A stretch of DNA of 32,037 nucleotides from the NCBI GenBank assembly GCA_902772665.1, contig CACYBU010000221.1:1-32037 (forward strand), in the 5' to 3' direction. Origin of the DNA: an uncultured Methanobrevibacter sp. (lineage in GTDB: Archaea > Methanobacteriota > Methanobacteria > Methanobacteriales > Methanobacteriaceae). The position numbers and the translations under genes are program-made. The notes under the pieces are model-generated. The model was not told the origin of the DNA. It searched no databases and saw nothing but the letters and a program-made list of their open reading frames with translations. Below, piece after piece: positions 3,470 to 25,151 of this stretch; positions within the stretch are counted from its first letter, which is position 1, and the number at the start of each line of letters is the position of its first letter.

Positions 3470-4900
3470 TCAGTTTTTACCAAGAATGTCTTTTATAACA
3501 TACTTGTCATCATCATCAAATACTCCTATCAGATAAACAGTTGCAAAGTAAATTATTATTCCAACAGGCAATGCCACCCACATGTTCAGGTTCAACAAAT
3601 ATAATGCCACTCCCAAAATCAATGAACTAAGCATTATTTTCACCAAATCTGCATATAATTTTTTATTTGGCCTATGACCCAGTTTATAAATTACATAACA
3701 TTGTATTATCACTATCAACACATCACTCAATACAGTTGTTGTTGCAGCACCATTGTATGAGAAATATGGTATCATAAATAAATTCAAAACAATATTAAAC
3801 ACAGCGGCAATTGCATAAATTTTAGTAATTGTCAATTCTTTATGTGATGCATTTAATAAAGTATTACATGCTCCACTAACAAACAATAAACACACGGTCC
3901 AAATCAATATTGAAAGCACTGAGGAAGCAGGGTCAAATTTATGCCCATAGATTAGTTGCACAATATCAAATGAGTAAAACATTGTCCCAACAGCTATGGG
4001 TATTATTATGAGCATCAAATATTTAACTGATTTCTCAAAACTTATCAATAACATTGATTCATCATTTTTAAAGAATTTACTCATCACAGGAAATATTACG
4101 GCAGTATATACAGAGTAAAACAGTGTTAAAACTGAAATTAACTTATATGATGCATTATAAATTCCAGTCGCATAACTTCCAACCATATTTGTAAGCATAA
4201 CAATATCAATTGAGTAATAAATAGAATATAAAAGACTAGTTACAGCAAAAGGAAGAGAATATAATGTGATTTTTTTACAAAACTCTTTATCCAGTTCAAA
4301 TTTCGGTTTCGAAATATGTTTTGTGAAAACATAATAAACATAAACTAAAGCAATAATATTGGCTAAAATATATGCAACTGCAATTCCATAAATCTCCAAA
4401 TCACCAAAAATCGCAATTAAAATAAAAATTAATAATATGATATTTAATAATGCATTTCCAATACCTTGATATTTACCTTCTTCAAAAGCTTGAAAAGAAC
4501 CATTCAATAATCCAATAAATGATTTAATAATCATTTCAATAGTAAAAAGCAAAGTAACGATTATAGTAAGTTCATCCCTCCCCATCAAAATTAAAATAAT
4601 TAATGTTAAAAGGATTGTTCCTATAGCAAAAATATTTTTAAGAGGTATTGCATTACCAAGATATTTTGGAGCGGAATCATAATCAGTTGCAATATGTCTT
4701 ACAATATGAGTACTAATACCCAAATCAACAGTAATAGCTAACATGCCACTAAAAGATGTTGCAAATCCATAAACTCCAAAATTACTAACTCCAAGATATC
4801 TTCCTAATAATATAGTCCAAATAAAAGCACATATGCTAGCTATTACTTGTGAAATAGTTAACCAACTCATATTCTTAAATATTGTTTGAACTTTACTCAT
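3470..4900 (-). CDS. Polysaccharide flippase (Wzx/MATE-like membrane transporter)
   Basis: This 476-residue protein is hydrophobic along its whole length, with about 12 to 14 predicted membrane spans. It begins with the pattern typical of polysaccharide exporters (FKNMSWLTISQVIASICAFIW, then LLGRYLGVSNFGVYGFATSF). That start and length match Wzx-type O-antigen and capsule flippases of the MOP superfamily, which move lipid-linked oligosaccharides across the membrane. It is transcribed away from the Gfo/Idh gene at 5057. A TATA-like ATATATATAG at about 4930-4940 lies only some 30 bp before the ATG, so the leader would be very short. In this locus it is the natural exporter for the glycan built by the genes to its right. 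The substrate cannot be read from the sequence. Confidence 0.88.
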   Translation of the reverse strand: MSKVQTIFKNMSWLTISQVIASICAFIWTILLGRYLGVSNFGVYGFATSFSGMLAITVDLGISTHIVRHIATDYDSAPKYLGNAIPLKNIFAIGTILLTLIILILMGRDELTIIVTLLFTIEMIIKSFIGLLNGSFQAFEEGKYQGIGNALLNIILLIFILIAIFGDLEIYGIAVAYILANIIALVYVYYVFTKHISKPKFELDKEFCKKITLYSLPFAVTSLLYSIYYSIDIVMLTNMVGSYATGIYNASYKLISVLTLFYSVYTAVIFPVMSKFFKNDESMLLISFEKSVKYLMLIIIPIAVGTMFYSFDIVQLIYGHKFDPASSVLSILIWTVCLLFVSGACNTLLNASHKELTITKIYAIAAVFNIVLNLFMIPYFSYNGAATTTVLSDVLIVIIQCYVIYKLGHRPNKKLYADLVKIMLSSLILGVALYLLNLNMWVALPVGIIIYFATVYLIGVFDDDDKYVIKDILGKN

Positions 4901-5056: not shown

Positions 5057-6004
5057 ATGAAGAATATAGCAATTATTGGCGTCGGAGCACTTGGGAAACG
5101 ACATTTGCAATCTATGGTTGAGTTACAAGACCAATGCAATATTTACGCTGTAGAAATAAATCAAAAGGTAATCAGTGTTTTGAGTAATGAATTTCCAAAT
5201 GTTAAGTTTATCACAACAGTTGGGGACTTACCTAATGAATTAGAAGTTGTAGTTATTGCTACAAATTCAAATATTAGGAGAATTTTATTTGAACAATTGG
5301 TAAATCAGTCTATTGTAAGAAATATTATTTTTGAAAAGGTTTTATTCCAAAAAGAAGAGGATTATTATTTTGTGCAAGAAAAACTTAATGAATTGAATAT
5401 TCGTGCTTGGGTAAATTGTGCAAGACGAGAATGGTATTCTTATAAACTCCTTAAAAAAGAGTTAGATGATTGTAATGAATTATATATATCTGCAATTGGT
5501 GGTCAATGGGGAATAGGATGTAATGCTATTCATATTCTTGATTTAATAGAGTTTCTCTCTGGAAGTGAAATAGAGACTCTTGATTTAAATGGATTAGAAA
5601 ATAAAGTTATTGAAAGCAAAAGAAAGGGGTTTTATGAATTTTTTGGCATAATTAGAGGTACTTCAGGAAAATGCAGAAATTATAATCTGGTATGTATAGA
5701 TAATTCAATTTTACCGTTCCGTATTGAAATTACCACTGAAAAATCAAGATACATTATAGATGAAGCAAATAATTATTTACTCATATCAGATAATGATTCA
5801 AATTGGAACTGGGATAAAAGAGATTTTAAACAGGTTTATCAAAGTCAAATGACTGGTAGGATAGTAAAATCTATTATTGATGATGGAAATTGTAATCTTG
5901 CAGATTATGAATCTTCAATGAAACTTCATCTTAAGTATGTACTCCCTTTAATTGATTTTTTTAAAGTTAATGGGATGGGGGGAGATTTATGTCCGATAAC
6001 TTAA
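5057..6004 (+). CDS. Gfo/Idh/MocA-family oxidoreductase, divergent
   Basis: The 315-residue protein opens with a Rossmann dinucleotide-binding loop (IAIIGVGALGKRHL), as in NAD(P)-dependent sugar oxidoreductases of the Gfo/Idh/MocA family. The usual EKP motif appears as FEKVLFQ, so the lysine is kept but the proline is not. A later segment, NAIHILDLIEFL, has the His and Asp expected in the catalytic helix. It overlaps the next gene by 16 bases and is very probably co-transcribed with it. Its place in a glycan locus points to oxidation or epimerisation of a nucleotide sugar or sugar side group. The substrate is unknown. The ATG at 5057 has an AAGGT SD a short distance upstream. Confidence 0.82.
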   Translation: MKNIAIIGVGALGKRHLQSMVELQDQCNIYAVEINQKVISVLSNEFPNVKFITTVGDLPNELEVVVIATNSNIRRILFEQLVNQSIVRNIIFEKVLFQKEEDYYFVQEKLNELNIRAWVNCARREWYSYKLLKKELDDCNELYISAIGGQWGIGCNAIHILDLIEFLSGSEIETLDLNGLENKVIESKRKGFYEFFGIIRGTSGKCRNYNLVCIDNSILPFRIEITTEKSRYIIDEANNYLLISDNDSNWNWDKRDFKQVYQSQMTGRIVKSIIDDGNCNLADYESSMKLHLKYVLPLIDFFKVNGMGGDLCPIT

Positions 6005-6945
6005 ATGTATTGTTAATTGGTGCAGGTTACATGGGAAAGGAATATGGTAAAGTATTAACTGCTTTAAATGTTCCATATTCAGTTATATGTAGAAGTCAAC
6101 AATCAGCATATAATTTTAATGAAGAATTTGGCGTCATGCCTATATTTGGGGGAGTTGAAAATGCTCTTGTGCATATTGACGAAAAACCTGATGTTGCTAT
6201 TGTTGCTGTAAATGTTGAATTTCTTTCTTCAACTGTTATTGAATTGTTGAACTTCGGTATTAAGAAAGTGCTTGTGGAAAAACCAGCCGGATTAAATAAA
6301 AATGAAATGATTGAAATTTATGAAACTAGTATATCTATGGGTGCTGAAGTTTATGTTGCTTATAATAGGAGATTTTATTCATCAACAGAAAAAGCTTTAG
6401 AAATCATATCTGAAGATGGTGGAGTTTCATCTTTTAATTTTGAATTTACAGAATGGGGATTTAAAATTGAAAAGACATCTCATGCACCAGAAGTAAAAGA
6501 AGAATGGTTACTTGCTAATTCAACTCATGTCATAGATCTTGCTTTCTTTTTAGGAGGTTATCCTAAGGAATTTTGCACATTCAATTCTGGAAAACTTGAC
6601 TGGCATAGTAGAGCGAGCAAATATGCTGGTGCAGGTATAACTGATAAAGGATCGCTTTTTTCATATCAGGCAAATTGGGATGCTCCGGGTCGTTGGGCAG
6701 TAGAAATACTTACAAATGAACATAGATTGTATTTTAGACCAATGGAAGAATTATCTATTCAAAAAAAGGGATCTGTTAATGTTGAAAATGTTGAAATAGA
6801 TAATCAATTGGACCTGGATTTTAAACCCGGATTATATAAACAGGTTGAAACTATTTTATCCAACAGAAAGGATGAGAGATTAGTCACTATTGAAGACCAA
6901 ATTAATCACATGGAATTTTATGAAAGAATAGATGGAAAAATTTAG
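5989..6945 (+). CDS. Gfo/Idh/MocA-family oxidoreductase
   Basis: A 318-residue dehydrogenase with the Rossmann motif VLLIGAGYMGKEYG at the start and a canonical VLVEKPAGL motif, which supplies the catalytic lysine. NSTHVIDLAFFLGG carries the expected His and Asp. The start is well supported: GGGGGAG sits just before the ATG, inside the end of the previous gene. The pair 5057 and 5989 appears to be a two-gene operon and probably acts on the same sugar. It ends 8 bases before the stop of the convergent acyltransferase. Unlike its upstream neighbour and the paralog at 10444, all the usual catalytic residues look intact. Specificity cannot be told from the sequence. Confidence 0.85.
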   Translation: MSDNLNVLLIGAGYMGKEYGKVLTALNVPYSVICRSQQSAYNFNEEFGVMPIFGGVENALVHIDEKPDVAIVAVNVEFLSSTVIELLNFGIKKVLVEKPAGLNKNEMIEIYETSISMGAEVYVAYNRRFYSSTEKALEIISEDGGVSSFNFEFTEWGFKIEKTSHAPEVKEEWLLANSTHVIDLAFFLGGYPKEFCTFNSGKLDWHSRASKYAGAGITDKGSLFSYQANWDAPGRWAVEILTNEHRLYFRPMEELSIQKKGSVNVENVEIDNQLDLDFKPGLYKQVETILSNRKDERLVTIEDQINHMEFYERIDGKI

Positions 6946-6953
6946 TAACTTAT

Positions 6954-8078
6954 TTACTTTAAATAATAACTAAATTTTTCTTCAAAAATTTTAAATTTAC
7001 TGGCAATCCATCTTGGAATGTTATTTAGTTTGTTGTCAACAATATAAATCCATAATTTCTCAATTGTTACTCTACGTACAATATCAATTCCTGTACATAT
7101 AACATAAATAAGGACTGTAATTATTATCAGGGATAATATTAGATATGGGGAATTAATATAATTTGGAATATTTAAGACGGTATAAAATAGATATGGCCAA
7201 ACAAACATATTACTGTGGATTAAATAAACCCCTAAAACACTTCCAGAAATATAATTAATGTATTTATTTGAAAATTCTTTTCTTTTTATAAATATTAAAA
7301 ATAGTGTTATTGCTGAGGTTAATATGAAAAGACTATTTGATGTTTTAAACATTGAAGTCTCTTTATTAAATATGCTTAATTGATTTAATGGACTAATAGA
7401 ATCAAAACCCATGAATAATAAATAACCTATCATCAATGATATGGAAAAAATTATAATTAATTTTTTCATATTAATCTTATCCATATCTACGTGTAATCGG
7501 ATAAAACTGCCAATTAAATATAATATTATGAAAAATATCATTTCTGAATAAGCAAAACAGGTACCTGTAAATGTAGGATAAACAGTCCATAATATAAGTA
7601 CTATTATAAGTAATTTTAAATAAGTCTCTTTTGATAATTTATTAATGAACATGTTTAAAAATGGGGAAAGTAACATTAATACAATATAATTGGTAATAAA
7701 CCAGTAAGCTTCGTGACTGATTGGTAAAATACATTTAACAATATCCAGCATTGTTGTAGGTAGTGCGGGAGTTAAAAATAACGTAAATATAACTAAAAAT
7801 GCAATTGAATAGAAGTATACTGACCCGCCTAAAATTAATAGTTTTCGAAAGTGAAATTTTGATTTAATCATAAAATATGCTGAAATTATGATAAATATGT
7901 CAACACCAAGTTTTCCTAAAATTCCTAAAAAGTATAAAAAATAACTATTTGGGTTTGAAAGGGCAAATGTAACTCCATCAAATCCATGACGAGATAAATG
8001 GAAAGATATGATAAAAATCATTGCAATAATTCTTAAGATTTCTAAATTTGAATTTCTTGGTTTATCATATATTTTCAT
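6954..8078 (-). CDS. Membrane acyltransferase, acyltransferase-3 (OafA-like) family
   Basis: The 374-residue protein starts with the family hallmark NLEILRIIAMIFIISFHLSRHG, containing the conserved Arg and His of acyltransferase-3 proteins. About ten hydrophobic spans follow. These enzymes transfer acetyl or other acyl groups from the cytoplasm to sugars of surface polysaccharides. Here the likely acceptor is the glycan made by this locus, perhaps its nonulosonic acid. The gene runs against the flanking operons. A TATA-like TTTATAAAT (minus strand, at about 8102-8110) lies about 27 bp before the ATG and no SD is seen, so the message may be leaderless. The family is clear; the acceptor is inference. 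Confidence 0.87.
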   Translation of the reverse strand: MKIYDKPRNSNLEILRIIAMIFIISFHLSRHGFDGVTFALSNPNSYFLYFLGILGKLGVDIFIIISAYFMIKSKFHFRKLLILGGSVYFYSIAFLVIFTLFLTPALPTTMLDIVKCILPISHEAYWFITNYIVLMLLSPFLNMFINKLSKETYLKLLIIVLILWTVYPTFTGTCFAYSEMIFFIILYLIGSFIRLHVDMDKINMKKLIIIFSISLMIGYLLFMGFDSISPLNQLSIFNKETSMFKTSNSLFILTSAITLFLIFIKRKEFSNKYINYISGSVLGVYLIHSNMFVWPYLFYTVLNIPNYINSPYLILSLIIITVLIYVICTGIDIVRRVTIEKLWIYIVDNKLNNIPRWIASKFKIFEEKFSYYLK

Positions 8079-8256
8079 ACAATAGTATTTATTATAGACT
8101 ATTTATAAAGATAATGTTTAAGATTGTTTAGTTCACATCTGTGTAGTTATTAAAATTTTATTGTTTTCATATCATTAATTAGTTGATAATATTTTAACAT
8201 AATAATTAAATGATAGGGGTTATAAAAAATAATATATAAATTTGGGGAAGTTTCAG

Positions 8257-9291
8257 ATGTTTTTTGATAATTATTATTATCTTAGTTCAAATAAGTATAC
8301 ATTTATAATTGCTGAAATCGGTGTTAATCATAATGGTGATGTCAATTTAGCTAAAAAAATGATTAAATCAGCAAGTGAATGTGGCGTTGATGCTGTTAAG
8401 TTTCAAACTTTTAATAGTGAAGAATTAGTAACCAAAAATACTAAAACAGCTAGTTATCAGGAGAAAAATACTAATGAAAGTTCACAGTTGGAAATGTTAA
8501 AAAAATTAGAGTTAACATTCGATGATTTTAATGAATTAAAAGATTATGCCTTAAAAAATAATGTAATGTTTATTTCATCTCCTTTTGATTTTAAAAGTGT
8601 TGATTTACTTGAAAAATTGGATGTTCCATTTTATAAACTAGGTTCTGGTGAATTAACCAATTTTGAATTAATAGATTATATTCAAAAAACAGACAAGCCC
8701 ATGATTATATCGACTGGGATGGCTACATTGGATGAAATTAAAGAAACCTATGAGTACATTGTAAATAAAGATAGTTTAATAATTTTACATTGCATAACTG
8801 GTTATCCAACTACTTTTGAAGAAGCAAATCTGAATTTTATCAAAACTTTACAAAATGAATTTGAGGTTCCAATTGGATTTTCAGATCATAGTCCTGGAAT
8901 AGAACTTCCGATTGCAGCAGTTGCATTAGGAGCTTGTGTTGTAGAAAAACATTTCACATTGGATAAAAATTTAGAGGGACCCGATCACAATGCATCTCTA
9001 AATCCAAAAGAATTTAAAGCAATGGTTGATGCAATCAGAAATGTCGAAGTTGCAATGGGTGATGGTGTAAGGAAATTCAGTGAAAATGAAAAAGAGATTA
9101 AAAAAATCGCCCGAAAAAGCATAGTTATAAATCAAGATATTTCAAAGGGAACCGTACTCAAAAGAGAAATGTTGTCAATAAAAAGGCCTGGAACGGGGAT
9201 AGCTCCCAAACATATAAATGAACTTGTTGGTAAAACAGTTATTAAAGATTTAAATCTTGGAACTGTTATGAAATGGGATTATTTAAAATAA
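8257..9291 (+). CDS. neuB: Nonulosonic acid synthase (NeuB/LegI type)
   Basis: The 344-residue enzyme has the NeuB TIM-barrel hallmarks: FIIAEIGVNHNGD, CGVDAVKFQTF, FISSPFD, and EKHFTLDKNLEGPDHNASL. A carboxy-terminal SAF (antifreeze-like) domain follows from about residue 280. It would condense phosphoenolpyruvate with a 2-epimeric hexosamine to give a nine-carbon sialic-type acid. I place the start at the ATG at 8257, preceded by GGGGAAG, rather than at the in-frame TTG at 8242, whose first codons contain that SD. It leads a tight operon with neuC, two Gfo/Idh genes, neuA and an acetyltransferase. The sequence alone does not separate N-acetylneuraminate from legionaminate synthase; context favours a legionaminic-type product. 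Confidence 0.93.
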   Translation: MFFDNYYYLSSNKYTFIIAEIGVNHNGDVNLAKKMIKSASECGVDAVKFQTFNSEELVTKNTKTASYQEKNTNESSQLEMLKKLELTFDDFNELKDYALKNNVMFISSPFDFKSVDLLEKLDVPFYKLGSGELTNFELIDYIQKTDKPMIISTGMATLDEIKETYEYIVNKDSLIILHCITGYPTTFEEANLNFIKTLQNEFEVPIGFSDHSPGIELPIAAVALGACVVEKHFTLDKNLEGPDHNASLNPKEFKAMVDAIRNVEVAMGDGVRKFSENEKEIKKIARKSIVINQDISKGTVLKREMLSIKRPGTGIAPKHINELVGKTVIKDLNLGTVMKWDYLK

Positions 9292-9304
9292 ACTAGTTGA
9301 TTTT

Positions 9305-10438
9305 ATGATTAAAAAAGTATTATATATTACTGGAACAAGAGCAGACTATGGATTAATGCATGAAACTCTTAAATTATTAAATAATAATAAAAAAATTCAA
9401 CTAGATATTGTCGCAACTGGTATGCATTTAATGGATGAATTTGGTTATTCGATAGACGAAATTAAAAGGGATAATTTCAAGTTACATATTGTTGAGCAGA
9501 CTTTTCTAAAAGATGATGAAAAATCGATGGCAGGTTTTATAGGAAATTTAATCACAGATTTAACAAATCTTTTCATTGAATTAAAACCGGACATTATTTT
9601 ATTGCTAGGTGATCGTGGTGAAATGTTGGCTGGAGCTGTTGTTGCATCATATTTACAAATTCCAATTGCTCATGTTCACGGAGGTGATGTATCATCCACT
9701 GTTGATGATTCTACAAGACATGCCATAACAAAACTCGCAAATATTCATTTCCCTGCAACAAAAAAAAGTGCATCAAGAATAAAACAAATGGGTGAAAATC
9801 CAGATAATATTTTTGTTGTTGGCGCTCCTGGATTGGATTCAATAATTTCGGTTAAAGATAACATTGATGAGGAGTACCTGAAAAATAAATATAATATTCA
9901 AAAAGACTTTGTTTTGATATTGCAACACCCAGTAAGTTTGGAAATTAATGATTCTACTTTTCAAATTTCTCAAACACTGGAAGCAGTCACTTCCACAGAT
10001 TATCAAGTAATTGTTGTTTATCCTAATGCTGATGCTGGTGGAAGAGCAATGATTAATAAAATTAATGAATATGATGTTGATACTTATAAAAATATTCCTC
10101 ATGATGATTTCATTGGCCTATTGGGTTTGGCAAATATTTTAATTGGAAACTCAAGTAGCGGAATAATAGAATCTTCATCATTCAAATTGCCTGTAATTAA
10201 TGTGGGAACAAGACAGCAAGGTCGTGAAAAAGCAGAAAATGTTATTGATGTTGATTATAATTATAATGAAATATTAGATGCAATAAATTATATTAACTCA
10301 GATGAATATCTTGAAAAAATAAAGGATTGTGTTAATCCTTATGGTGACGGAAAAGCTTCAGCTAGAATTTGTAAAATATTAAATGATATTAAAATAAATA
10401 AAGAACTGTTGAATAAAGAATTTTTTGAAATAGTGTGA
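9305..10438 (+). CDS. neuC: UDP-sugar hydrolysing 2-epimerase (NeuC/LegG type)
   Basis: The 377-residue protein begins VLYITGTRADYGLM and contains LLLGDRGEMLAGA, HVHGGDVSSTVDDSTRHAITKL and IGNSSSGIIES. These are classic motifs of the GT-B-fold NeuC/WecB-type epimerases. NeuC converts UDP-GlcNAc to ManNAc plus UDP. The LegG form does the same to the 2,4-diacetamido-trideoxy sugar. It lies 13 bases after neuB and supplies its substrate. The start codon has only a weak SD-like GTTGAT. Both the GlcNAc and the diacetamido substrates remain possible; the dehydratase and aminotransferase in the same locus favour the latter. Confidence 0.92.
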   Translation: MIKKVLYITGTRADYGLMHETLKLLNNNKKIQLDIVATGMHLMDEFGYSIDEIKRDNFKLHIVEQTFLKDDEKSMAGFIGNLITDLTNLFIELKPDIILLLGDRGEMLAGAVVASYLQIPIAHVHGGDVSSTVDDSTRHAITKLANIHFPATKKSASRIKQMGENPDNIFVVGAPGLDSIISVKDNIDEEYLKNKYNIQKDFVLILQHPVSLEINDSTFQISQTLEAVTSTDYQVIVVYPNADAGGRAMINKINEYDVDTYKNIPHDDFIGLLGLANILIGNSSSGIIESSSFKLPVINVGTRQQGREKAENVIDVDYNYNEILDAINYINSDEYLEKIKDCVNPYGDGKASARICKILNDIKINKELLNKEFFEIV

Positions 10439-10443
10439 TTTTT

Positions 10444-11451
10444 ATGAATGTTGGTGTTATCGGTTTGGGATCAATGGGAAAAAGAAGAATCAGATTAATT
10501 AAAAGTAATTTTCCAGATGTAAATGTTATTGGAATTGACAATAGTGATGAAAGATGCAGAGAAGTGCAAGATTTATTTTCTATTAAAACCTTAAACGATT
10601 CAATTGAATTTTTTAAAAATAATGATTGTGAAGCTGTTTTTATTTCAACACCTCCTTTAACTCATTCAAAAATAATTAATGATGCACTTAATGCCAATTT
10701 AAATATATTTACAGAAATTAATTTAGTTAAAGATTTGTATGATGAAAACATTAAAATGGCTAATGAAAAGAATTTAACATTATTTTTATCTTCCACTCAA
10801 CTTTACAGAAAAGAAATCAGATATATCGATTCAAAAATTTCAAAATTAAATAAAACAACTAATTATATTTACCATATTGGAAATTACTTACCTGATTGGC
10901 ATCCCTGGGAAAGTTATAAAAACTTTTTTGTTGGAAACAAGAAAACAAATGGATGCAGGGAAATTTTAACAATTGAATTACCATGGATTGTTAAAACATT
11001 CGGAGAGATTAAACAAATTCACGTTTCTAAAAATAAAATCACTCATTTGGATATTGATTATCCGGATAGTTTTTTCATTAACATTACTCATAAAAACGGA
11101 AGTAATGGTGTTTTAATCATTGATTTGGTTTCAAGAAAAGCCGTTAGAAATTTAGAAATAATCAATGAAAACTGTTATATTCAATGGGATGGGACTCCTG
11201 ATGGATTGGAAGAATTCAATATTGATTCTGGCGAAATGGAGAAAATAAATTTATATGAAAAAATTTCAAATGAACAGGATTATAATCAAACAATCATAGA
11301 AAATGCATATCTAGAAGAAATCATTGATTTTTTCAACGTTTTAAATTCAAATAAAAATCATGGTGTATATTCATTTGAAAAAGATAAATACGTTATTGAT
11401 GCAATAGACATTATTGAAGAAACAGATGATAAACAATCTTATATATTTTAG
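10444..11451 (+). CDS. Gfo/Idh/MocA-like protein lacking the usual catalytic residues
   Basis: A Rossmann start (VGVIGLGSMGKRRIRLI) places this 335-residue protein in the Gfo/Idh/MocA family. The EKP motif is replaced by FTEINLV, so the usual lysine is gone. In the helix that normally carries Asp and His, the aligned part reads REILTIELPWI instead of SIDLIHEWDYI, as found in the next gene. It shares the motif LPDWHPWESY with that neighbour (LPEWHPEEDY), so the two are related. I prefer the ATG at 10444, with GTGAT as SD overlapping the neuC stop, over the GTG at 10435. It may be a non-catalytic partner of the next protein or an enzyme with a changed mechanism. Its position between neuC and neuA ties it to nonulosonic acid synthesis. 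Confidence 0.8.
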   Translation: MNVGVIGLGSMGKRRIRLIKSNFPDVNVIGIDNSDERCREVQDLFSIKTLNDSIEFFKNNDCEAVFISTPPLTHSKIINDALNANLNIFTEINLVKDLYDENIKMANEKNLTLFLSSTQLYRKEIRYIDSKISKLNKTTNYIYHIGNYLPDWHPWESYKNFFVGNKKTNGCREILTIELPWIVKTFGEIKQIHVSKNKITHLDIDYPDSFFINITHKNGSNGVLIIDLVSRKAVRNLEIINENCYIQWDGTPDGLEEFNIDSGEMEKINLYEKISNEQDYNQTIIENAYLEEIIDFFNVLNSNKNHGVYSFEKDKYVIDAIDIIEETDDKQSYIF

Positions 11452-11461
11452 GAGGATAATT

Positions 11462-12397
11462 ATGGATAAAATTAAAATATGCTTTGTTGGAGTTGGTTCA
11501 ATTGCAAAAAGACACATTTACAATATTAAAAATTTCATTTTCAAAGATTCTGATTGTGTAATTGATGCTTACAGAAGCAGTAATTCTCCTTTGGATTGTG
11601 ATATTGCAGAATATATTGACAACCAATATTTCAAATATGGGGATGTTCATAATGATTATGATGCTATTTTCATAACAAATCCCACAAAACATCATTATTC
11701 AACTCTTAAACAATTTAAAAATCATTCAGATAATTTTTTCATAGAAAAACCGCTCGTTGATATTTCAGATATTAATCTTGATTTTAAGGAGTTCAACTCA
11801 AAAACATGTTATGTAGCCTGTCCAATCAGACACAGTAGTGTTATCAAATATCTGAAAGAAAATTTGGATTTAAATTTAGTTAATTCAGTTCGATGTATCT
11901 GTTCAACATATCTTCCAGAATGGCATCCCGAGGAAGACTATCGATTGTCTTATAGTGCTAAAAAAGAATTAGGTGGAGGAGTGAGCATTGATTTAATCCA
12001 TGAATGGGATTACATAACATATTTATTCGGAAAACCCTCTGAAATTTTCGCTATTCTTGATAAAATTTCAAAACTAGAAATTGATACTGAAGATATTTCA
12101 ATTTATATTGCTAAATATGAAAATTTACTTTTGGAATTGCATCTTGACTATTTTGGAAGATTTCCAATTAGGGAACTGATGATTTTCACAGATGATGAGA
12201 CAATCGTGGGAGATATTATTAATAATAAAATCATATATAAAAATAGTGATAAATTAATTGATTTTAATGAACAGAGAAATGATTATCAACTTGAAGAGTT
12301 GAAATATTTCTTTAAATTAATTAAAGGCGAAATAAAGAATATTAATGATATCAATAATGCATTAAATGTCATGAAATTAACTCAAGGAGAATTATAA
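11462..12397 (+). CDS. Gfo/Idh/MocA-family oxidoreductase in the neu operon
   Basis: The 311-residue protein has the nucleotide-binding motif ICFVGVGSIAKRHI, the EKP motif (FFIEKPLVD), and GGGVSIDLIHEWDYI with the catalytic Asp and His. It also has the LPEWHPEEDYR segment shared with the upstream paralog. The start at 11462 is fixed by a near-perfect SD, TAGGAGGATA, which overlaps the upstream stop; an in-frame TTG at 11414 is far less likely. Its stop overlaps the neuA start by one base, so translation is probably coupled. It probably oxidises or reduces an intermediate or side chain of the nonulosonic acid. The substrate is not known. Confidence 0.85.
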   Translation: MDKIKICFVGVGSIAKRHIYNIKNFIFKDSDCVIDAYRSSNSPLDCDIAEYIDNQYFKYGDVHNDYDAIFITNPTKHHYSTLKQFKNHSDNFFIEKPLVDISDINLDFKEFNSKTCYVACPIRHSSVIKYLKENLDLNLVNSVRCICSTYLPEWHPEEDYRLSYSAKKELGGGVSIDLIHEWDYITYLFGKPSEIFAILDKISKLEIDTEDISIYIAKYENLLLELHLDYFGRFPIRELMIFTDDETIVGDIINNKIIYKNSDKLIDFNEQRNDYQLEELKYFFKLIKGEIKNINDINNALNVMKLTQGEL

Positions 12398-13140
12398 TGG
12401 AATTATTATTTACTATATGTGGAAGAGCAGGTTCAAAAGGAATAAAAGATAAAAATATTAAAAATTTTTTAGATAAACCATTAGCATTATACTCTTTGTC
12501 GGTCATTGATTTATATTTAAAAAATTCGGATTATTCGGCAGACATAGTATTAAACACTGATAGTGAAGGATTAATTGATATTTTTGATAACAATTCATTA
12601 TGTTCAGTTGATGTTGTTAAACGATTAGCGGAATTGTCTGGAGACAAAGTTGCCAAAATCGATGTTATTAAAAATAGTTGGGAGGAAATGGAGAAAAGGC
12701 TTAATAAAAATTATGATTTAATAATAGATTTAGATATTACTTCTCCATTAAGAACAGTCGATGATTTAAATAATATGATTGAATTGAAATTAAACTCAGA
12801 TTATGATTTAATTTTTTCCGTCACAGATTCAAGAAGAAATCCTTATTTTAACATGGTTAAAAAGACAGATAATGGATATGATAGAGTTATTCCATCTAAT
12901 TTCAATACTCGTCAAGAAGCACCTGAAATTTATGATATGAATGCTTCAATTTATGTCTATTCAAGGGAATTTTTAGAAAAAAATATAGGGTTATTCGATG
13001 GAAAATGTGGAATATATAAGATGTTTGATACAGGAATACTGGATTTGGACCATGAAAATGATTTGTTCCTTATGGAGGTCATAGCAAAATATCTATTTGA
13101 GAATAATGATGAATTTGGTGAGGTTTATAATAATATTTAA
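12397..13140 (+). CDS. neuA: CMP-nonulosonic acid synthetase (NeuA/LegF type)
   Basis: This 247-residue cytidylyltransferase shows the NeuA nucleotide-binding motif near the start (TICGRAGSKGIKDKNIKNF), LIIDLDITSPLRTVDDL, and NTRQEAPEIYDMNASIYVY. It activates a sialic-type acid with CTP to the CMP-sugar used by transferases. AAGGAG lies 8 bases before the ATG, and the ATG overlaps the stop of the Gfo/Idh gene. NeuA, NeuB and NeuC in one operon make the nonulosonic acid assignment secure, although the exact acid is not. The length is normal for the bacterial and archaeal enzymes. Confidence 0.93.
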   Translation: MELLFTICGRAGSKGIKDKNIKNFLDKPLALYSLSVIDLYLKNSDYSADIVLNTDSEGLIDIFDNNSLCSVDVVKRLAELSGDKVAKIDVIKNSWEEMEKRLNKNYDLIIDLDITSPLRTVDDLNNMIELKLNSDYDLIFSVTDSRRNPYFNMVKKTDNGYDRVIPSNFNTRQEAPEIYDMNASIYVYSREFLEKNIGLFDGKCGIYKMFDTGILDLDHENDLFLMEVIAKYLFENNDEFGEVYNNI

Positions 13141-13151
13141 AGGTGAAAAAT

Positions 13152-13553
13152 ATGAGTGAAAATCGTTTTGATAATTGGAAAGCGCCTGAAATAAGAGAAT
13201 GTGAATTAACAAAATATAACTGGTTAGTTCAAAATAAAGAAAATTTAGATTTAGGTTATAAAACAGACATTGGAGCATTTACATATATTAATGCTAAAAA
13301 TAATGTAATTATTGAAGACCATGTTCAAATAGGGTCTCATTGCTCTATTTATTCTGTTTCCACAATTGATGATAAGGAAGGTGAAGTTGTTCTTAAAAAC
13401 AACTGCAGAATCGGAACTCACTCAGTAGTAATGCCTGGAGTTACTGTTGGCGAAAATTCAATTATTGGTGCTTTCAGTTTTGTTACTGAAGATATTCCGG
13501 ATAATGTCATAGCATTTGGTGTTCCTGCAAAGGTTATTCGGAGATTAGATTGA
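13152..13553 (+). CDS. Left-handed beta-helix acetyltransferase
   Basis: A short 133-residue protein made mostly of hexapeptide repeats (IGAFTYIN, VIIEDHVQIGSHCSIYS, CRIGTHSVVMPGVTVGENSIIGAFSFV), ending in the typical IAFGVPAKVIRRLD. Such proteins are trimeric acyl-CoA-dependent acetyltransferases. In the legionaminic and bacillosamine pathways an enzyme of this fold acetylates the 4-amino group made by the aminotransferase. This copy lacks the amino-terminal Rossmann-like domain of PglD. I place the start at the ATG at 13152, with AGGTG six bases before it, rather than at the GTG inside that SD. It is the last gene of the neuB operon. Confidence 0.85.
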   Translation: MSENRFDNWKAPEIRECELTKYNWLVQNKENLDLGYKTDIGAFTYINAKNNVIIEDHVQIGSHCSIYSVSTIDDKEGEVVLKNNCRIGTHSVVMPGVTVGENSIIGAFSFVTEDIPDNVIAFGVPAKVIRRLD

Positions 13554-13683
13554 TAATAATATATTCAATTATTTTTTTCATAAATTTTAGAAACAATTAA
13601 ATAATAATAAAAACATATTTATAATCCTACATATAATTTTGATAATTGATTAATATTTATTGATATATATAAGGAGACCAATA
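13554..13683 (+). promoter_or_regulatory. Internal promoter before the aminotransferase gene
   Basis: A 130-bp AT-rich gap breaks an otherwise tight gene series. ATATTTATAA at about 13615-13624 is a good TATA candidate, giving a start of transcription near 13645. A strong AAGGAG SD at 13671-13676 follows. The aminotransferase and dehydratase may thus be a separate unit. Confidence 0.5.
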
Positions 13684-14802
13684 ATGAACATTCCATTATT
13701 TGAGATATATAATGATGAAAATGATGTCAAGTTTATTTCAGAGGAAATTGCTTCTGGAAAGTTTTGGGCTGTAGGTTCAAGGATTTCAGAGTTTGAGGAA
13801 AAAATTGCAGACTATATTGGAACTAAACATGCAGTGTCATTAAATTCCGGAACTTCAGCATTACATGCAGCTTTATTGTCACAGGGAATAGGTAAAAATG
13901 ATGAAGTAATTGTTCCTTCATTTACATTTATTGCAACAGCTAACTGCGCGTTATTCACTGGAGCCAAACCAGTTTTTGCAGATATTGAAGAAACTTCATG
14001 TGGTTTAAATCCTGAATCTGTTGAAAATTTAATAAACAAAAATACTAAAGCAATTATCCCTGTTCATTATGGAGGTTGTCCATGCCAAATCAATGAATTA
14101 AAAGATATTGCTGAAGACAATGACTTAATATTAATTGAAGATGCTGCCGAAGCTTTTGGAGCATCAGTGGGAGGTAAAAATATAGCTACTTTTGGTGATT
14201 TAAATGTTTTAAGTTTCTGCCAGAATAAAGTCATTACAACTGGTGAAGGCGGAGCTATTGTCACTGATTCAGATGAACTTTATGAAAAATTAAATTTAAT
14301 AAGGTCCCATGGAAGATGGGAAGGGGCAGATTATTTTTCATCTTCAGGATTGTTTGATTATGTTGATCTTGGTTTTAATTGGAGAATGTCTAACCTAACT
14401 GCAACATTGGGAATTTCTCAAATTCAAAAAGTTGATAAAATCATTGAATTAAGACAAAAGAATGCTGATTATCTCTCTAAGAGATTACTAGAAGAAACAG
14501 ATGAAGTAATAGTTCCCGATGTTCCCAAAGGTTATGATCATGTTTTTCAATTATTCAGTATTTTTGCAAATAATCGTAATGAATTAATTAAATATTTGGA
14601 ATCTAATGGTGTTTCATCTAAAATTTATTTCCATCCGATTCATCAGTCTGAATTCTATAAAAACAAATTAAAATATAATGTTAATTTACCTGTTACTGAG
14701 AGTGTTTTTGAAAAAACAATCACTCTTCCAATGTATCCATCAATAACTACTGAACAAATGGATTATATTGCCGAAACAGTTGGAAAATTCTATAAAATAT
14801 AA
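13684..14802 (+). CDS. DegT/DnrJ/EryC1-type sugar aminotransferase
   Basis: The 372-residue protein is a PLP-dependent aminotransferase of nucleotide sugars. It has SLNSGTSALHAALL (phosphate binding), IPVHYGGCPC, ILIEDAAEAFGA and SFCQNKVITTGEGG, in which Lys182 is the expected PLP lysine. The family acts on 4-keto sugars such as those made by the dehydratase that follows 9 bases later. The start at 13684 is chosen for its AAGGAG SD; a TTG at 13660 would place that SD inside the gene. With the dehydratase and the hexapeptide acetyltransferase it would give a diacetamido-trideoxyhexose, as LegC does. PseC-type or perosamine-type specificity cannot be excluded from motifs. Confidence 0.9.
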   Translation: MNIPLFEIYNDENDVKFISEEIASGKFWAVGSRISEFEEKIADYIGTKHAVSLNSGTSALHAALLSQGIGKNDEVIVPSFTFIATANCALFTGAKPVFADIEETSCGLNPESVENLINKNTKAIIPVHYGGCPCQINELKDIAEDNDLILIEDAAEAFGASVGGKNIATFGDLNVLSFCQNKVITTGEGGAIVTDSDELYEKLNLIRSHGRWEGADYFSSSGLFDYVDLGFNWRMSNLTATLGISQIQKVDKIIELRQKNADYLSKRLLEETDEVIVPDVPKGYDHVFQLFSIFANNRNELIKYLESNGVSSKIYFHPIHQSEFYKNKLKYNVNLPVTESVFEKTITLPMYPSITTEQMDYIAETVGKFYKI

Positions 14803-14811
14803 GGTGTCTAC

Positions 14812-15792
14812 ATGATAAATGATTTTTATAAAGGAAAAAAAGTTCTTGTTACTGGAGGTTCTGGATCAATAGGTCAAAAAATTGTTAAAGAACTGTTAAA
14901 TCATGATGTTGACGTTGTAAGAGTATTAGATAACAATGAAACTGCATTATTCGATTTGGAACAAGATTTAAATTCATCAAAAATCAGAACATTAGTTGGA
15001 GATATTAGAGATTATCGACGTTTAGAAAGAGCTTTTAAAGATATTGATATAATTTTTCATGCTGCTGCTTATAAACATGTTCCATTATGCGAATACAATC
15101 CTATAGATGCTGTTAAAACAAATGTGATTGGCACACAGAATATTATTGATGCGGCTATTAGCTGTAATGTTGAAAAAGTCATTTTAATTAGTACTGATAA
15201 AGCTGTCAATCCTGTAAATGTTATGGGAGCTACCAAATTGCTGGCTGAAAGATTAATGATTTCATCCAATGTTTATAGTGGTGTAGGCGGAACTAAGTTT
15301 TCTTGTGTTAGATTTGGCAATGTCTTAAATTCAAGAGGATCTGTTATTCCTGTATTTAAAAAACAAATTAGTAATGGTGGTCCTTTAACAATAACTGACG
15401 AGCGAATGACACGATTTATAATGCATATTCATGAAGCTGCCAAACTCATTTTAACTGCGGGAAGTCTATCTGATGGCGGAGAGATATTTATCCTAAAAAT
15501 GCCTTCTGTAAGAGTTCCTGACTTGGCACGTGCTATGATTGAATATTATGCGCCTAAATATGGTTTTGAGGTGGACGACATTGACATTGAATTCATCGGA
15601 AGAAGAGTTGGTGAAAAATTACATGAAGATTTAATGACTCCCGAGGAAATACTTTATGCTGAAGATAAAGGTGAATTATTTATTATCCGCAATAAAATAA
15701 ATGATAATCATCCGGATTTTGTTTATAATTCTTCTGAAATTGAACAATTATCTAAAAATGAGATTTTGAAAATTTTAGATGAAATTGGATAA
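14812..15792 (+). CDS. UDP-sugar 4,6-dehydratase of the CapD/PglF/LegB group
   Basis: The 326-residue short-chain dehydrogenase has the motif VLVTGGSGSIGQK (Gly15 to Gly21), FHAAAYKHVPLCEYNP, ILISTDKAVNPVNVMGATK and RFGNVLNSRGSVIP. The usual catalytic tyrosine is methionine (Met138, with Lys142), as in the CapD/WbpM/PglF and CapE enzymes, not tyrosine as in PseB. It is the soluble catalytic part only, without the membrane domain of PglF. It would make the 4-keto-6-deoxy sugar for the aminotransferase just upstream. An AGGTG SD precedes the ATG. Whether it keeps or inverts C5 is not decided by these residues. Its stop is 9 bases from the stop of the convergent transferase. Confidence 0.88.
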   Translation: MINDFYKGKKVLVTGGSGSIGQKIVKELLNHDVDVVRVLDNNETALFDLEQDLNSSKIRTLVGDIRDYRRLERAFKDIDIIFHAAAYKHVPLCEYNPIDAVKTNVIGTQNIIDAAISCNVEKVILISTDKAVNPVNVMGATKLLAERLMISSNVYSGVGGTKFSCVRFGNVLNSRGSVIPVFKKQISNGGPLTITDERMTRFIMHIHEAAKLILTAGSLSDGGEIFILKMPSVRVPDLARAMIEYYAPKYGFEVDDIDIEFIGRRVGEKLHEDLMTPEEILYAEDKGELFIIRNKINDNHPDFVYNSSEIEQLSKNEILKILDEIG

Positions 15793-15801: not shown

Positions 15802-16833
15802 TTATTCCTCATCATTAATTATTTTAATTAAATCTTCTCTAAGATTATTTAATCTTTCATTATGTAATTCACCATCATAAACATATATTTCACTTTCTTT
15901 GAAATTCAATAATGAATTAGATATGATTGAACCAACAACAGTAGGGTTTATTCCAATTAAACTTAATATTTCAATTGGAAATGTTTTTTCTATCACTGTT
16001 ACCTTTGGAAAAATTTCTTCATAATTCTTATCATCTCTGGGGTGGGGTTTAATGAATATTTCGTAATCATCGAATTTTTCAATGATTTCACTATAAATGG
16101 TTAGTTCCTGATTTAATGTAAGATGTCCCTCTTGTGAAAACGGTTGGGTTAAAAGTAGTAATGTTTTTCCTTTAAGATTATAACTATTTCTATTGATATT
16201 GAATATTGATAATATTTTATCTTGTTCATTAATTGATAAATTAGCCCACAATTCCTCAATATCAATAACTTTGACTTTATTTTTGAGTAGAGGATGATCA
16301 AATTCTTTTGTTAAATAGACATTTTTAATATTTTTATGACTTCCAAATCCTTCTGTATTGCTTAAAAAGTAAATCCCGCATATATGAAGTATTGTATCTA
16401 AAAGGGGATTTATTTTATGTGTTTCACTAATTTTGATAGTATAATTGGATAATCCGTCTTCAATTATATTTGAATTATCATTTTCATAAAACATGAATGA
16501 AAATGGGGTATGTGCATGACCATAAACTTCAACATCTTTATTTAAGGTTTTAATGAATAGTAGGATTCTTAATTTTAAATATCCATAAAAATATCTCATG
16601 TATCCTATTACATTTTCAAATATGCCTTCAACTGAATTTAGTGGTGCCATTTTAGCACCGTCTTTAAATGAAATTGGAGGTAATTGTATGTGTTTAACAT
16701 TTTTTGAAACTTCTTTGGGAAATAAATCCGTAAATATGAAGATATCTTTTTCATTATAACCATTTATTAATAAATATAGAAAAAACGAATAAACTGTAAT
16801 GAATAAACATATATTTATTTTTTCTTTTGCCAT
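15802..16833 (-). CDS. Glycosyltransferase resembling GT52 sialyltransferases
   Basis: The 343-residue protein carries two short motifs known from bacterial GT-B sialyltransferases: an acidic-Gly motif (NIIEDGLSNY, near residue 130) and a His-Pro motif (IFIKPHPRDD, near residue 258). LLLLTQPFSQEGHL and FPIELLS-like FPIEILSLIG fit the GT52 group, as in streptococcal capsule sialyltransferases. It would use a CMP-nonulosonic acid donor, which the neuA gene nearby can supply. It is the second gene of a minus-strand pair, 15 bases after the GT8 gene, with an AGGGATT SD. The GT52 call rests on motifs; related families GT38 and GT80 are alternatives. The acceptor is unknown. Confidence 0.68.
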   Translation of the reverse strand: MAKEKINICLFITVYSFFLYLLINGYNEKDIFIFTDLFPKEVSKNVKHIQLPPISFKDGAKMAPLNSVEGIFENVIGYMRYFYGYLKLRILLFIKTLNKDVEVYGHAHTPFSFMFYENDNSNIIEDGLSNYTIKISETHKINPLLDTILHICGIYFLSNTEGFGSHKNIKNVYLTKEFDHPLLKNKVKVIDIEELWANLSINEQDKILSIFNINRNSYNLKGKTLLLLTQPFSQEGHLTLNQELTIYSEIIEKFDDYEIFIKPHPRDDKNYEEIFPKVTVIEKTFPIEILSLIGINPTVVGSIISNSLLNFKESEIYVYDGELHNERLNNLREDLIKIINDEE

Positions 16834-22466: not shown

Positions 22467-25151
22467 ATGAATAAAGAAACGTTAATAACAGTGGGTAAAG
22501 GAATTATCATAATCTTAATTCTTTTAGCTGTTGTTTTTGCATTAAAAGCTCCTGCAGCTGATTTAAATTATTTTGATGAAGAGGGTAAAGCATTATACAC
22601 TGACTCATCAGGTCTTCCTTATTTCAGTGAAATGGATTCATATTATAACTACAGGCTGACCAATGATTATGTAGATCACGGCTATGCGGGAGATGAAATG
22701 AGAGATGGTGTTGCATGGGATATGCACAGGTATTCTCCTGACGGTGAAACGGTTAATTACGAACTAGGTATTACATATGTAACCTCCTGGTTGCACGATA
22801 TGGCAAACAAATACTTTGGAGGAAACTTCTCAGTTAAAGAAGTTGCATTCTGGGCCGGAGCAATTGTATCTACCTTATGTGTAATTCCAGCATTTATCTT
22901 TTCAAGAAGAGTCACCAATGATTACGGGGCGATAGTGGCAACGCTTGTCATTGCACTTGCTCCGAACTACTTTGCGCACACATTCCCAGGATTTTTCGAT
23001 ACAGATATGTTCTATTACATATTCTCGCTTTTATTCGTATTCTTCTTTGTTGAATCGATTAGAAGTGACAACTGGATATGGAAAATCATATTCGCACTCT
23101 TATCCATTGCATCCATAGGTATCTTTTCAACCCAATGGACAGGATGGATCTTTTACGTTGCATTAATGGGATTCTTCGCAGTAGTATACCTTATTGTATC
23201 ATTCATATTCAATGTTGACAATGACAAAGACAAATATCCGAATATCCTTCAAAGGATAATACACAATAAGGAATTCTTATCAATCGTGGCAATTGCAGTA
23301 ATCGCATTTGCCGGACTCGCAGTGTTTAGAGGAGTTAATGGTGTAGTTGGAATATTCAGTAATGTATTCAACCTGCTCAACCTGCAATCCGCTTCAGTTG
23401 TTGTTGGAGGATTCCCGAATGTACTTATTTCCGTAGCAGAGATGCAGATGCCTTCAATGCTCGGTAGCGGTATGACTTCAATGTTTACAGCAAGTACCGA
23501 CGGATTCATAAACGGTATCGGTGGTATCGCAATATTTTTTGCAGCATTAATAGTATTATACATTCTTGTTTCAAGAGCATGGAAATACAGAAAAGTAACT
23601 CAAAAACCGGCTGATGTGAAACCTAAAAAAGGTAAAAGATTATCCGCAGCGGAAAAACTAGACAACAGCCGCAAATTCAAAATCTCCCTTGCTGATTTAA
23701 AAGCCGGTGGGGACGATACAATTCTAGCAAGCAAACGTTTAACAGTATTATACGCAACATTATTTGTTGTATGGGTAGTTGTAACCGCCCTAGCGGTATC
23801 CAGAGGTTCAAGGTTCATTACCACAATCGTACTTCCTTTCGGACTTCTTGCAGGTATATTTGTCGGATACGCCTGTGACTATATTAAAAACAGACTCAAA
23901 AACGATAAACTGTTAACTGTTGCAGTTCTTTTCTGCGGATTTTTAGCAGCCGTACCATTAGCAGCAATAAACACTACATATGCAATCATACTATTTGCAG
24001 CAATTGCAGTAATAGGTCTTGTAAGTATTTATGCTCTTAAGGACAATTCAGCTGATAAAAACCATGTTCCGCTTAAAAAGTACGTTTTAATAATAGCACT
24101 TGTCATTGCATTAATCACACCTAGTATCTGCGGTGCCTATAACACATCAAACAATGTTGTACCAGGTACCAACGATTACATGTGGAACGCAATGCACTGG
24201 ATTGATGAAACCCAACCTGAGGATACAGTAATCACATCATGGTGGGACTTCGGTTACCTCTTCGAAGTTGCAGCCGACAGGCAGGTAACATTCGACGGAG
24301 GTTCCCAGTCAGGGGAACGTGCCTTCTGGCTGGGTCAGGCGATGACCACAGATGATCTGGAACTATCAGCAGGTATATTCAGAATGCTAGATTCAACCGG
24401 TACCCGTGCCGATGAGTATCTTGTAAACCTCACAGGCAGTCCGGGTCAGGCAACTAGCATTCTCATAGACATCCTTCCAAGAACACAGAGTGATGCTCAA
24501 AAAGTACTTACAAGCGAGTATAATCTCACAACCCCTCAGGCAAAACAGCTTTTAGAATACACCCACCCAAAAAACCCGAGACCGGTAATATTTGTTGCTT
24601 CAAGCGATATGCTTCAGAAAGCCGGATGGTGGAGTTACTTCGGTGCATGGAACTTTGAAAACCAGACTTCCGAAAACTACAATTACCACGTCTCATACGA
24701 CACAGCAAAAGTCGAACCGGGTCAGACCGGAAAGGTTTCCGTATTCTCAGATCCACCTATGACAGTTAATGCGGTGATTGAAAGAGGTGCCGGTAACAAT
24801 TCCACCGAAGCCCATATTGAGTGTGTTTACTCAGACTCCGGTGAACCGATTATGGTGAATGACACCGAGTACAATCCATTGAAAGCATCCAGACTGCTTC
24901 TGGTTGAAGACGGAATCTTAATGAAAAACGAATCCATCAAGAACGCAACAGACGGTAACTACACATTGTTCCTCATGGGTCAGAATGGTGAATACACACC
25001 TATTCTTATTGACAAGCACCTTGAAAACTCAATGTTTACCAAACTGTATCTTTTCGGTGGTGGCGGTCAGAACATTTTTGAACCGGTTCATTCGGAAAAC
25101 GGTGTAATGCTGTTTAATGTAAACTTTAACAATACAAAAGCAGGCAGTTAA
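22467..25151 (+). CDS. aglB: Oligosaccharyltransferase AglB (STT3 family)
   Basis: The 894-residue membrane enzyme transfers a lipid-linked glycan to Asn in Asn-X-Ser/Thr sites outside the cell. About a dozen membrane spans fill the first 560 residues, with acidic loops EMDSYYNYRLTNDY and GFFDTDMFYY that match the catalytic metal-binding motifs. The soluble domain carries the STT3 hallmark as Trp592-Trp593-Asp594-Phe595-Gly596 (WWDFG rather than the common WWDYG), followed by DGGSQSGERAFWLGQ. It has its own TATA box with a palindrome and a hairpin terminator. It lies only about 2.4 kb from the end of the glycan locus, so the glycan could be its substrate, though this is inference. Confidence 0.96.
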   Translation: MNKETLITVGKGIIIILILLAVVFALKAPAADLNYFDEEGKALYTDSSGLPYFSEMDSYYNYRLTNDYVDHGYAGDEMRDGVAWDMHRYSPDGETVNYELGITYVTSWLHDMANKYFGGNFSVKEVAFWAGAIVSTLCVIPAFIFSRRVTNDYGAIVATLVIALAPNYFAHTFPGFFDTDMFYYIFSLLFVFFFVESIRSDNWIWKIIFALLSIASIGIFSTQWTGWIFYVALMGFFAVVYLIVSFIFNVDNDKDKYPNILQRIIHNKEFLSIVAIAVIAFAGLAVFRGVNGVVGIFSNVFNLLNLQSASVVVGGFPNVLISVAEMQMPSMLGSGMTSMFTASTDGFINGIGGIAIFFAALIVLYILVSRAWKYRKVTQKPADVKPKKGKRLSAAEKLDNSRKFKISLADLKAGGDDTILASKRLTVLYATLFVVWVVVTALAVSRGSRFITTIVLPFGLLAGIFVGYACDYIKNRLKNDKLLTVAVLFCGFLAAVPLAAINTTYAIILFAAIAVIGLVSIYALKDNSADKNHVPLKKYVLIIALVIALITPSICGAYNTSNNVVPGTNDYMWNAMHWIDETQPEDTVITSWWDFGYLFEVAADRQVTFDGGSQSGERAFWLGQAMTTDDLELSAGIFRMLDSTGTRADEYLVNLTGSPGQATSILIDILPRTQSDAQKVLTSEYNLTTPQAKQLLEYTHPKNPRPVIFVASSDMLQKAGWWSYFGAWNFENQTSENYNYHVSYDTAKVEPGQTGKVSVFSDPPMTVNAVIERGAGNNSTEAHIECVYSDSGEPIMVNDTEYNPLKASRLLLVEDGILMKNESIKNATDGNYTLFLMGQNGEYTPILIDKHLENSMFTKLYLFGGGGQNIFEPVHSENGVMLFNVNFNNTKAGS

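Follow-up and report, generated by a model that had tools for sequence, protein, structure and literature searches.

A compact gene cluster for a probable legionaminic-type nonulosonic acid pathway in a Methanobrevibacter-like archaeon

The eight-gene cluster and its enzyme families

The DNA analyzed here is a stretch of 32,037 nucleotides (the window) from contig CACYBU010000221.1 of an uncultured Methanobrevibacter sp., part of a draft genome that is 82.6% complete. Positions 8257–15792 hold a compact run of eight intact, co-directional open reading frames (ORFs) in the order NeuB, NeuC, GfoA, GfoB, NeuA', hexapeptide acetyltransferase, DegT aminotransferase and CapD-type dehydratase (Table 1). 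Adjacent genes abut or overlap, apart from a gap of ∼130 bp that separates DegT from the preceding hexapeptide gene, and a purine-rich stretch lies upstream of most starts. A preliminary description of this DNA had proposed that six of these genes complete the route from uridine diphosphate N-acetylglucosamine (UDP-GlcNAc) to a legionaminic-type acid linked to cytidine monophosphate (CMP). All of the genes that it named are intact ORFs with strong family matches, and the six intact core families support a six-step UDP-type route; a GT52-family gene on the opposite strand and a second Gfo/Idh pair were absent from it. The cluster probably encodes a UDP-route pathway to a legionaminic-type nonulosonic acid, a sialic acid mimic of bacterial type, with its own likely transferase.

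In Pfam searches, matches were obtained for NeuB (PF03102, 4e-97), the CapD-type short-chain dehydrogenase/reductase (SDR; PF02719, 4e-109), DegT (PF01041, 1e-111), the hexapeptide transferase (PF00132, 1e-13), GfoA and GfoB (PF01408, 3e-12 and 4e-7) and NeuA' (PF02348, 1.6e-9). NeuB and NeuC also exceed the cut-offs of the NCBIfam equivalog models for N-acetylneuraminic acid (Neu5Ac) enzymes (TIGR03569, 442.2 versus 399.65 bits; TIGR03568, 413.8 versus 235.9 bits), which probably do not separate enzymes of legionaminic acid (Leg) from those of neuraminic acid (Neu). In its active-site columns NeuB reads SGE, with Gly at the position where pseudaminic acid (Pse) synthases carry Phe (PMC7371886). 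In trees built without NeuB1–3 and NeuC of Campylobacter jejuni and NeuC of Legionella pneumophila, both window proteins fall outside the Neu5Ac clades and also apart from the bacterial legionaminic enzymes, the methanogen proteins forming weakly rooted groups of their own. The preliminary description had looked to this phylogeny, and to the affiliation of the dehydratase and aminotransferase, as its test: the separation from Neu5Ac enzymes was recovered, and CapD and DegT belong to the cassette rather than to a Pse pathway, but a grouping with bacterial legionaminic enzymes was not obtained. Because the NeuB and NeuC sequences alone do not decide, gene linkage and the NeuA/LegF tree described below are the main grounds for the label 'legionaminic-type'.

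The catalytic triad of CapD, T-x9-M-x3-K (TDKAVNPVNVMGATK in the window), is present in all of the cassette CapD homologues examined except that of locus L011, which gave no match in the motif search. The same triad is carried by SpsM, the dehydratase of the UDP-route legionaminic pathway of Bacillus (PMC7439481). The PseB proteins of Methanobacteriaceae have Tyr in the triad and cluster with Helicobacter PseB (100/99); CapD of the window lies outside the PseB/CapE/Pen clade (99/98). CapE and FnlA also carry Met, and the triad therefore leaves the C5 stereochemistry of the CapD reaction unproven. At the hexapeptide slot, the NeuC–DegT interval of Methanocalculus chunghsingensis (L007, 11166–11939) contains an N-formyltransferase instead, as would be expected of a slot whose enzyme acylates the 4-amino group. 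This replacement suggests that M. chunghsingensis may make an N-formyl nonulosonic acid; the product of Halorubrum sp. PV6 is N-formyl-legionaminic acid (PMC6137143).

Table 1. Features of the window that bear on the nonulosonic acid cluster
Feature	Position	Strand	Basis or remark
NeuB/LegI-like nonulosonic acid synthase, SAF domain	8257..9291	+	ORF opens TTG 8242, ATG 8257
NeuC/LegG-like hydrolysing nucleoside diphosphate (NDP)-sugar 2-epimerase	9305..10438	+	Family matches, tree
GfoA, divergent Gfo/Idh/MocA protein	10444..11451	+	PF01408 match; catalytic residues replaced
GfoB, canonical Gfo/Idh/MocA oxidoreductase	11462..12397	+	EKP, HExDY kept; PtmF-like by position beside NeuA/LegF
NeuA', CMP-nonulosonate cytidylyltransferase, Gfo-adjacent (LegF/PtmF) clade	12397..13140	+	Family match, tree
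Short hexapeptide (LbH) acetyltransferase, presumed 4-N-acetyltransferase (PglD/LegH step)	13152..13553	+	Family match
DegT/DnrJ/EryC1 pyridoxal phosphate (PLP) aminotransferase, sugar 4-aminotransferase step	13684..14802	+	Family match
Soluble CapD-type UDP-GlcNAc 4,6-dehydratase	14812..15792	+	Family match; triad
GT52/polysialyltransferase-family glycosyltransferase, candidate nonulosonyl transferase	15802..16833	-	EDG, KPHP motifs; predicted fold
Gfo1, accessory Gfo/Idh protein	5057..6004	+	Homologue linked to NeuB/NeuC in L035
Gfo2, accessory Gfo/Idh protein	5989..6945	+	Homologue linked to NeuB/NeuC in L035
Wzx-like oligosaccharide flippase	3470..4900	-	Adjoins nonulosonic acid genes also in L004, L035–L037
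Acyltransferase-3 family membrane protein	6954..8078	-	Homologue adjoins cluster in L035
AglB/STT3 oligosaccharyltransferase, context only	22467..25151	+	Downstream of cluster in window and L004

Host and recurrence of the cassette

The host is a methane-producing, Methanobrevibacter-like archaeon; the preliminary description had placed the pathway in an archaeon. Its closest named relative is a Methanobrevibacter metagenome-assembled genome (MAG) from goat duodenum (L004), and the two share the order flippase, NeuB, NeuC, hexapeptide, DegT, CapD, GT8-like gene, topoisomerase and AglB. Because these genes match in order and include archaeal flanks (topoisomerase and AglB), MAG contamination was rejected and the locus is regarded as archaeal. 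The window and L004 are sisters by NeuC (98/96), and the NeuB tree agrees (93/85). In the congeneric genome L035, homologues of Gfo1 and Gfo2 sit between NeuB and NeuC.

Among 152 Methanobacteriota genomes, to which the genome counts given below also refer, NeuC was found in 12, at 14 places, two of which are cut by contig ends (L036 and L041). DegT and CapD adjoin it at 11 of the 12 readable loci (the window, L029–L035, L037, L038 and L040); no hexapeptide or NeuA match was found at the locus in L032 and L034. The same NeuC–DegT–CapD linkage holds at every readable locus of Methanosarcinales, Methanomicrobiales, Methanothrix and one Patescibacteria genome, often in the order NeuA-NeuB-NeuC-Hex-DegT-CapD (Methanococcoides, Methanocalculus, Methanogenium, Methanothrix and a Beckwithbacteria genome). 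Other methanogens carry the core in the same or nearly the same gene order, so the gene set of the window is not a chance assembly. The lone exception, L039 of another Methanobrevibacter (G059:C304, 8232–11194), has NeuC without linked DegT or CapD; its NeuB substrate loop is nearly that of the Neisseria Neu5Ac synthase and its NeuC groups with that of an Alistipes plasmid (100/100). By these signatures L039 is a candidate for an archaeal locus that makes true Neu5Ac.

The preliminary description had seen no enzyme of the guanosine diphosphate (GDP)-GlcNAc route, and this extends beyond the window: no full-length match to PtmE (glucosamine-1-phosphate guanylyltransferase, with CBS and NTP-transferase domains) was found in the draft genome at its 82.6% completeness, the best match covering the nucleotidyltransferase part only, at 29% identity. 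Within the limits of an incomplete genome, this fits the UDP route.

A second nonulosonic acid locus lies elsewhere in the same draft genome (G000:C4, L003, 7903–10623, minus strand), where a PseF–PseG fusion stands beside another NeuB; the organism may therefore also make a Pse-type acid. Further along the window (29237–31359, plus strand), an OLD-like AAA ATPase (430 amino acids; PADLOC HEC-02A/PD-T4-4 matches) is followed by a 215-amino-acid protein without known family, a possible defence pair.

The GfoA–GfoB–NeuA' unit and the GT52 gene

GfoB has a Rossmann domain and the EKP Lys, the EKP motif being invariant in ten homologues, and keeps the HExDY motif. Its predicted structure, built on six archaeal and Patescibacteria sequences, most closely resembles Gfo/Idh sugar dehydrogenases, GnnA among them (template modelling (TM) score about 0.8). 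Also among the fold matches are RgNanOx and YjhC, Gfo/Idh enzymes that act on sialic acid derivatives. All five GfoA homologues read EIN/ELN (E-I/L-N) in place of EKP with its catalytic Lys, and LPW, conserved in the same five, stands where GfoB has its active-site His. Because both catalytic residues are lost throughout, GfoA may be a partner subunit or may work differently.

The NeuA tree is split cleanly into Gfo-adjacent and Gfo-less groups (97/89), with a Legionella plasmid NeuA as the one exception. The window, L035, L037, L040 and the Subdoligranulum plasmid L043 belong to the former, and NeuA' groups with the LegF of loci bearing NCBIfam-named LegB/LegC (100/97). The single-gene NeuA of L004 falls in the Gfo-less group, in conflict with the sisterhood of L004 and the window by NeuC and NeuB, which points to an exchange, within the genus, between the three-gene unit and the one-gene NeuA. 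The unit is present in all of the other close relatives, so that loss in L004 appears the more likely direction. GfoA–GfoB–NeuA' thus travels as a unit, with relatives on a plasmid of gut Clostridia; no GfoA relative was found on the viral contigs searched.

Two further arrangements of these genes were observed. The Subdoligranulum plasmid (OY725868.1, 3090–11553) carries an unannotated cluster of LegC-like, PtmE, NeuB, NeuC, GfoA, GfoB, NeuA and a GNAT gene. In Methanogenium marinum (L008, 6425–8939), a GfoB–NeuA–SDR trio resembling PtmF–LegF–PtmA stands beside a UDP-type cassette.

GfoA occurs in five Methanobacteriota genomes, all five with NeuC (hypergeometric 1e-6, a value that, like the one below, ignores relatedness of genomes and clustering of glycan genes) and all five with GT52, which was not found in any of the seven NeuC genomes without GfoA. 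The GT52 gene itself is strongly matched to its Pfam family (2.7e-21; PF07922, 76.5 versus 26.1 bits) and to the polysialyltransferases (3.9e-19), and its E-D-G and H-P motifs are invariant in 11 homologues. The top PDB matches of its predicted structure (predicted local distance difference test score 86) are bacterial CMP-sialic-acid sialyltransferases, with a best E value of about 1e-7. All of the 12 genomes with GT52 contain NeuB, compared with 100 of the 152 overall (hypergeometric 0.005), and in eight of the 12 the GT52 gene lies within 10 kb of a NeuB. Some GT52 genes adjoin Pse-type synthases (L125–L127), and the family is therefore probably not confined to a single nonulosonic acid. 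No homologue was found in the genomes behind the named loci, so that among the archaeal genomes searched GT52 is so far restricted to Methanobacteriaceae. From its sequence and modelled fold, the protein is likely the nonulosonyl transferase of the cluster, for which it is the candidate.

Other genes occupy neighboring positions elsewhere. In L029, a more distant Methanobacteriales genome, a polysialyltransferase-family gene (PF07388; 12552–13679, minus strand) adjoins NeuA. In L004, a 350-amino-acid protein (7853–8905, plus strand) with no match in PDB or Pfam follows CapD at the place of the opposite-strand GT52 gene of the window.

The proposed pathway, its rivals and its relatives

From the observed gene content, families, cross-genome linkage, residue signatures and trees, we infer each reaction, and likewise the isomer, acyl groups, acceptor glycan and role of GfoA and GfoB. 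CapD would dehydrate UDP-GlcNAc to a 4-keto-6-deoxy sugar, on which DegT would install the 4-amino group, and acetylation by the hexapeptide enzyme would yield a UDP-diacetylbacillosamine-type sugar. NeuC would hydrolyse and 2-epimerise this to 2,4-diacetamido-2,4,6-trideoxymannose, NeuB would condense the latter with phosphoenolpyruvate, NeuA' would activate the resulting acid with CMP and the GT52-family enzyme would transfer it to a cell-surface glycan. As a tentative addition, GfoA and GfoB, forming one exchangeable unit with NeuA', might modify the sugar redox-wise before or around activation.

Several observations weigh against this proposal. CapD scores 73.8 bits against a cut-off of 475 for LegB (TIGR04180), and DegT 263.5 against 420 for LegC (TIGR04181); the two are therefore not filed in these families, although they would do the LegB and LegC jobs on UDP-sugars. 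PglD/NeuD have an N-terminal domain that is missing from the hexapeptide enzyme, the archaeal NeuC clade is weakly supported (71/55), the NeuC signature columns are mixed (two Neu, three Leg and two neither) and the GT52 model fits sialyltransferases moderately (TM about 0.45–0.58). NeuB active-site rules, rejected as a sole discriminator, rule out a Pse synthase and leave Leg and the E. coli Neu type indistinguishable. The legionaminic-type identity put forward in the preliminary description is accordingly supported in part, by gene linkage and the NeuA/LegF tree; the NeuC columns point both ways, and CapD and DegT fall short of the LegB/LegC models.

One rival reading is a true Neu5Ac pathway, in which NeuA, NeuB and NeuC would act on UDP-GlcNAc while DegT, CapD and the hexapeptide enzyme provide the same glycan with another, unrelated amino sugar. 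The mixed NeuC columns and the equivalog scores, from models probably blind to the Leg/Neu difference, agree with it, as does human GNE, the best PDB match of NeuC; ranking by PDB match score had been tried as a guide and was uninformative. However, in several orders this NeuC group comes with DegT and CapD linked to it, the Neisseria-like locus L039 lacks them and NeuA' clusters with the LegF proteins of loci that carry LegB/LegC, which makes a Neu5Ac pathway improbable. A Pse pathway with CapD as PseB and DegT as PseC is extremely unlikely: the cluster has NeuC and neither PseG nor PseH, the CapD triad has Met instead of Tyr, CapD branches outside the PseB clade, NeuB is without the Pse-type Phe and a PseF–PseG fusion is encoded separately. 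In its favor, among the NCBIfam models CapD and DegT score highest against PseB and PseC, although under the cut-off (317.5 versus 407.75 and 299.9 versus 423.5 bits), and Methanobrevibacter smithii was reported to contain Pse (Lewis, 2009, as cited in PMC6137143).

The role of GfoA and GfoB admits two further readings. As a refinement of the legionaminic-type pathway rather than an exclusive rival, GfoA–GfoB (with or without Gfo1–Gfo2) and NeuA' could convert a 5,7-di-N-acetyllegionaminic acid core to 8-epi- or 4-epi-legionaminic acid or to an oxidised derivative, which is possible but less probable than its negation. The unit is swapped jointly against a single archaeal NeuA, and the fold matches of GfoB include the two enzymes for sialic acid derivatives named above, but adjacency alone can account for the joint swap and GfoA lacks catalytic residues. 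In Acinetobacter capsule loci, elaABC stands in for lgaG, the plain CMP-Leg synthetase gene (lgaABCDEFG versus lgaABCDEF/elaABC; PMC9676051). EpaA, which joins a CTP_transf_3 domain to an aldo-keto reductase, was shown by nuclear magnetic resonance to 8-epimerise a nonulosonic acid together with the SDR EpaB (PMC12053666); however, the oxidoreductases of both reports are SDRs or aldo-keto reductases, not Gfo/Idh proteins. The main alternative to tailoring plus activation, itself tentative, would have GfoB, and GfoA, help to supply the precursor and leave the nonulosonic acid itself unmodified. This is the role reportedly proposed by Schoenhofen in 2009 for PtmF and PtmA of Campylobacter, and GfoB occupies the place of PtmF relative to LegF in bacterial leg loci. 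Against it, the unit is present here with no PtmE found, and the Gfo–NeuA–SDR trios of Methanogenium (L008) and Roseovarius (L044) have no PtmE gene nearby; PtmF/PtmA-like genes can thus occur without one. Somewhat doubtful is the broader reading that GfoA–GfoB–NeuA' is a new tailoring-plus-activation module built on Gfo/Idh proteins, common to gut Clostridia and rumen/gut Methanobrevibacter, that yields a nonulosonic acid new to archaea; in such a module GfoA, without the usual catalytic Lys, would perhaps act as partner subunit.

One bacterial comparison is with the GDP-route leg clusters of Campylobacter, Plesiomonas and Rhizobium type (PtmE–PtmF–LegF), which likewise contain NeuB, NeuC and a Gfo/Idh gene directly before NeuA/LegF, and to whose LegF clade NeuA' belongs. 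The Gfo/Idh insertion, described earlier as foreign to bacterial clusters, is therefore usual there, but the window differs in its two tandem Gfo/Idh genes and in having no PtmE match, no LegB/LegC-family enzymes and no PtmA SDR. The sps genes of Bacillus subtilis also encode six enzymes acting on UDP-linked sugars, with the same dehydratase triad; unlike the window, they occupy two loci (spsM apart), with no linked Gfo/Idh genes described in the accessible part of PMC7439481. The Acinetobacter lga/ela/aci and epaAB systems share the principle of a swappable module, oxidoreductases included, attached to a Leg or Pse core, the oxidoreductases being joined in EpaA/EpaB to a cytidylyltransferase, but their descriptions set them apart by SDRs and aldo-keto reductases in place of Gfo/Idh proteins (PMC9676051; PMC5595891; PMC12053666). 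The Pse clusters of Methanobacteriaceae (such as L123, L125 and L127) come from the same host family, several with GT52 beside the synthase, but have a Tyr-triad PseB, a PseG/PseH-type fusion (L123) and no NeuC.

A legionaminic-type pathway is not new in Archaea. Halorubrum sp. PV6 makes N-formyl-legionaminic acid by a six-gene pathway from an NDP-GlcNAc to the CMP-linked sugar, clustered with N-glycosylation genes, for which LegI and LegF activities were shown (PMC6137143); its genes are spread over 67 kb, and no Gfo/Idh–NeuA module or GT52 gene is described in the accessible part of that paper. In the window, by comparison, the genes are packed into one cassette, whose CapD-type dehydratase falls below the LegB cut-off. 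As far as was checked, three features are new: a compact cassette of UDP type that recurs across methanogens, a candidate transferase of family GT52 and an exchangeable Gfo–NeuA' unit. Parts of the cassette may nevertheless already stand in the survey of nonulosonic acid genes in archaea by Kandiba and Eichler (2013; cited in PMC6137143).

With its GT52 gene, the cluster provides a candidate nonulosonyl transferase for Archaea. According to the 2018 Halorubrum paper, none of the organisms that use Leg in protein glycosylation had an identified transferase for it (PMC6137143); Maf4 of C. jejuni has since been proposed as one (PMC9298399). The sister loci that differ by GfoA–GfoB–NeuA' versus a single NeuA constitute a natural experiment, and the cassette offers a testable route to a legionaminic-type acid in gut methanogens, where nonulosonic acids on host-associated cells could take part in recognition by the host.

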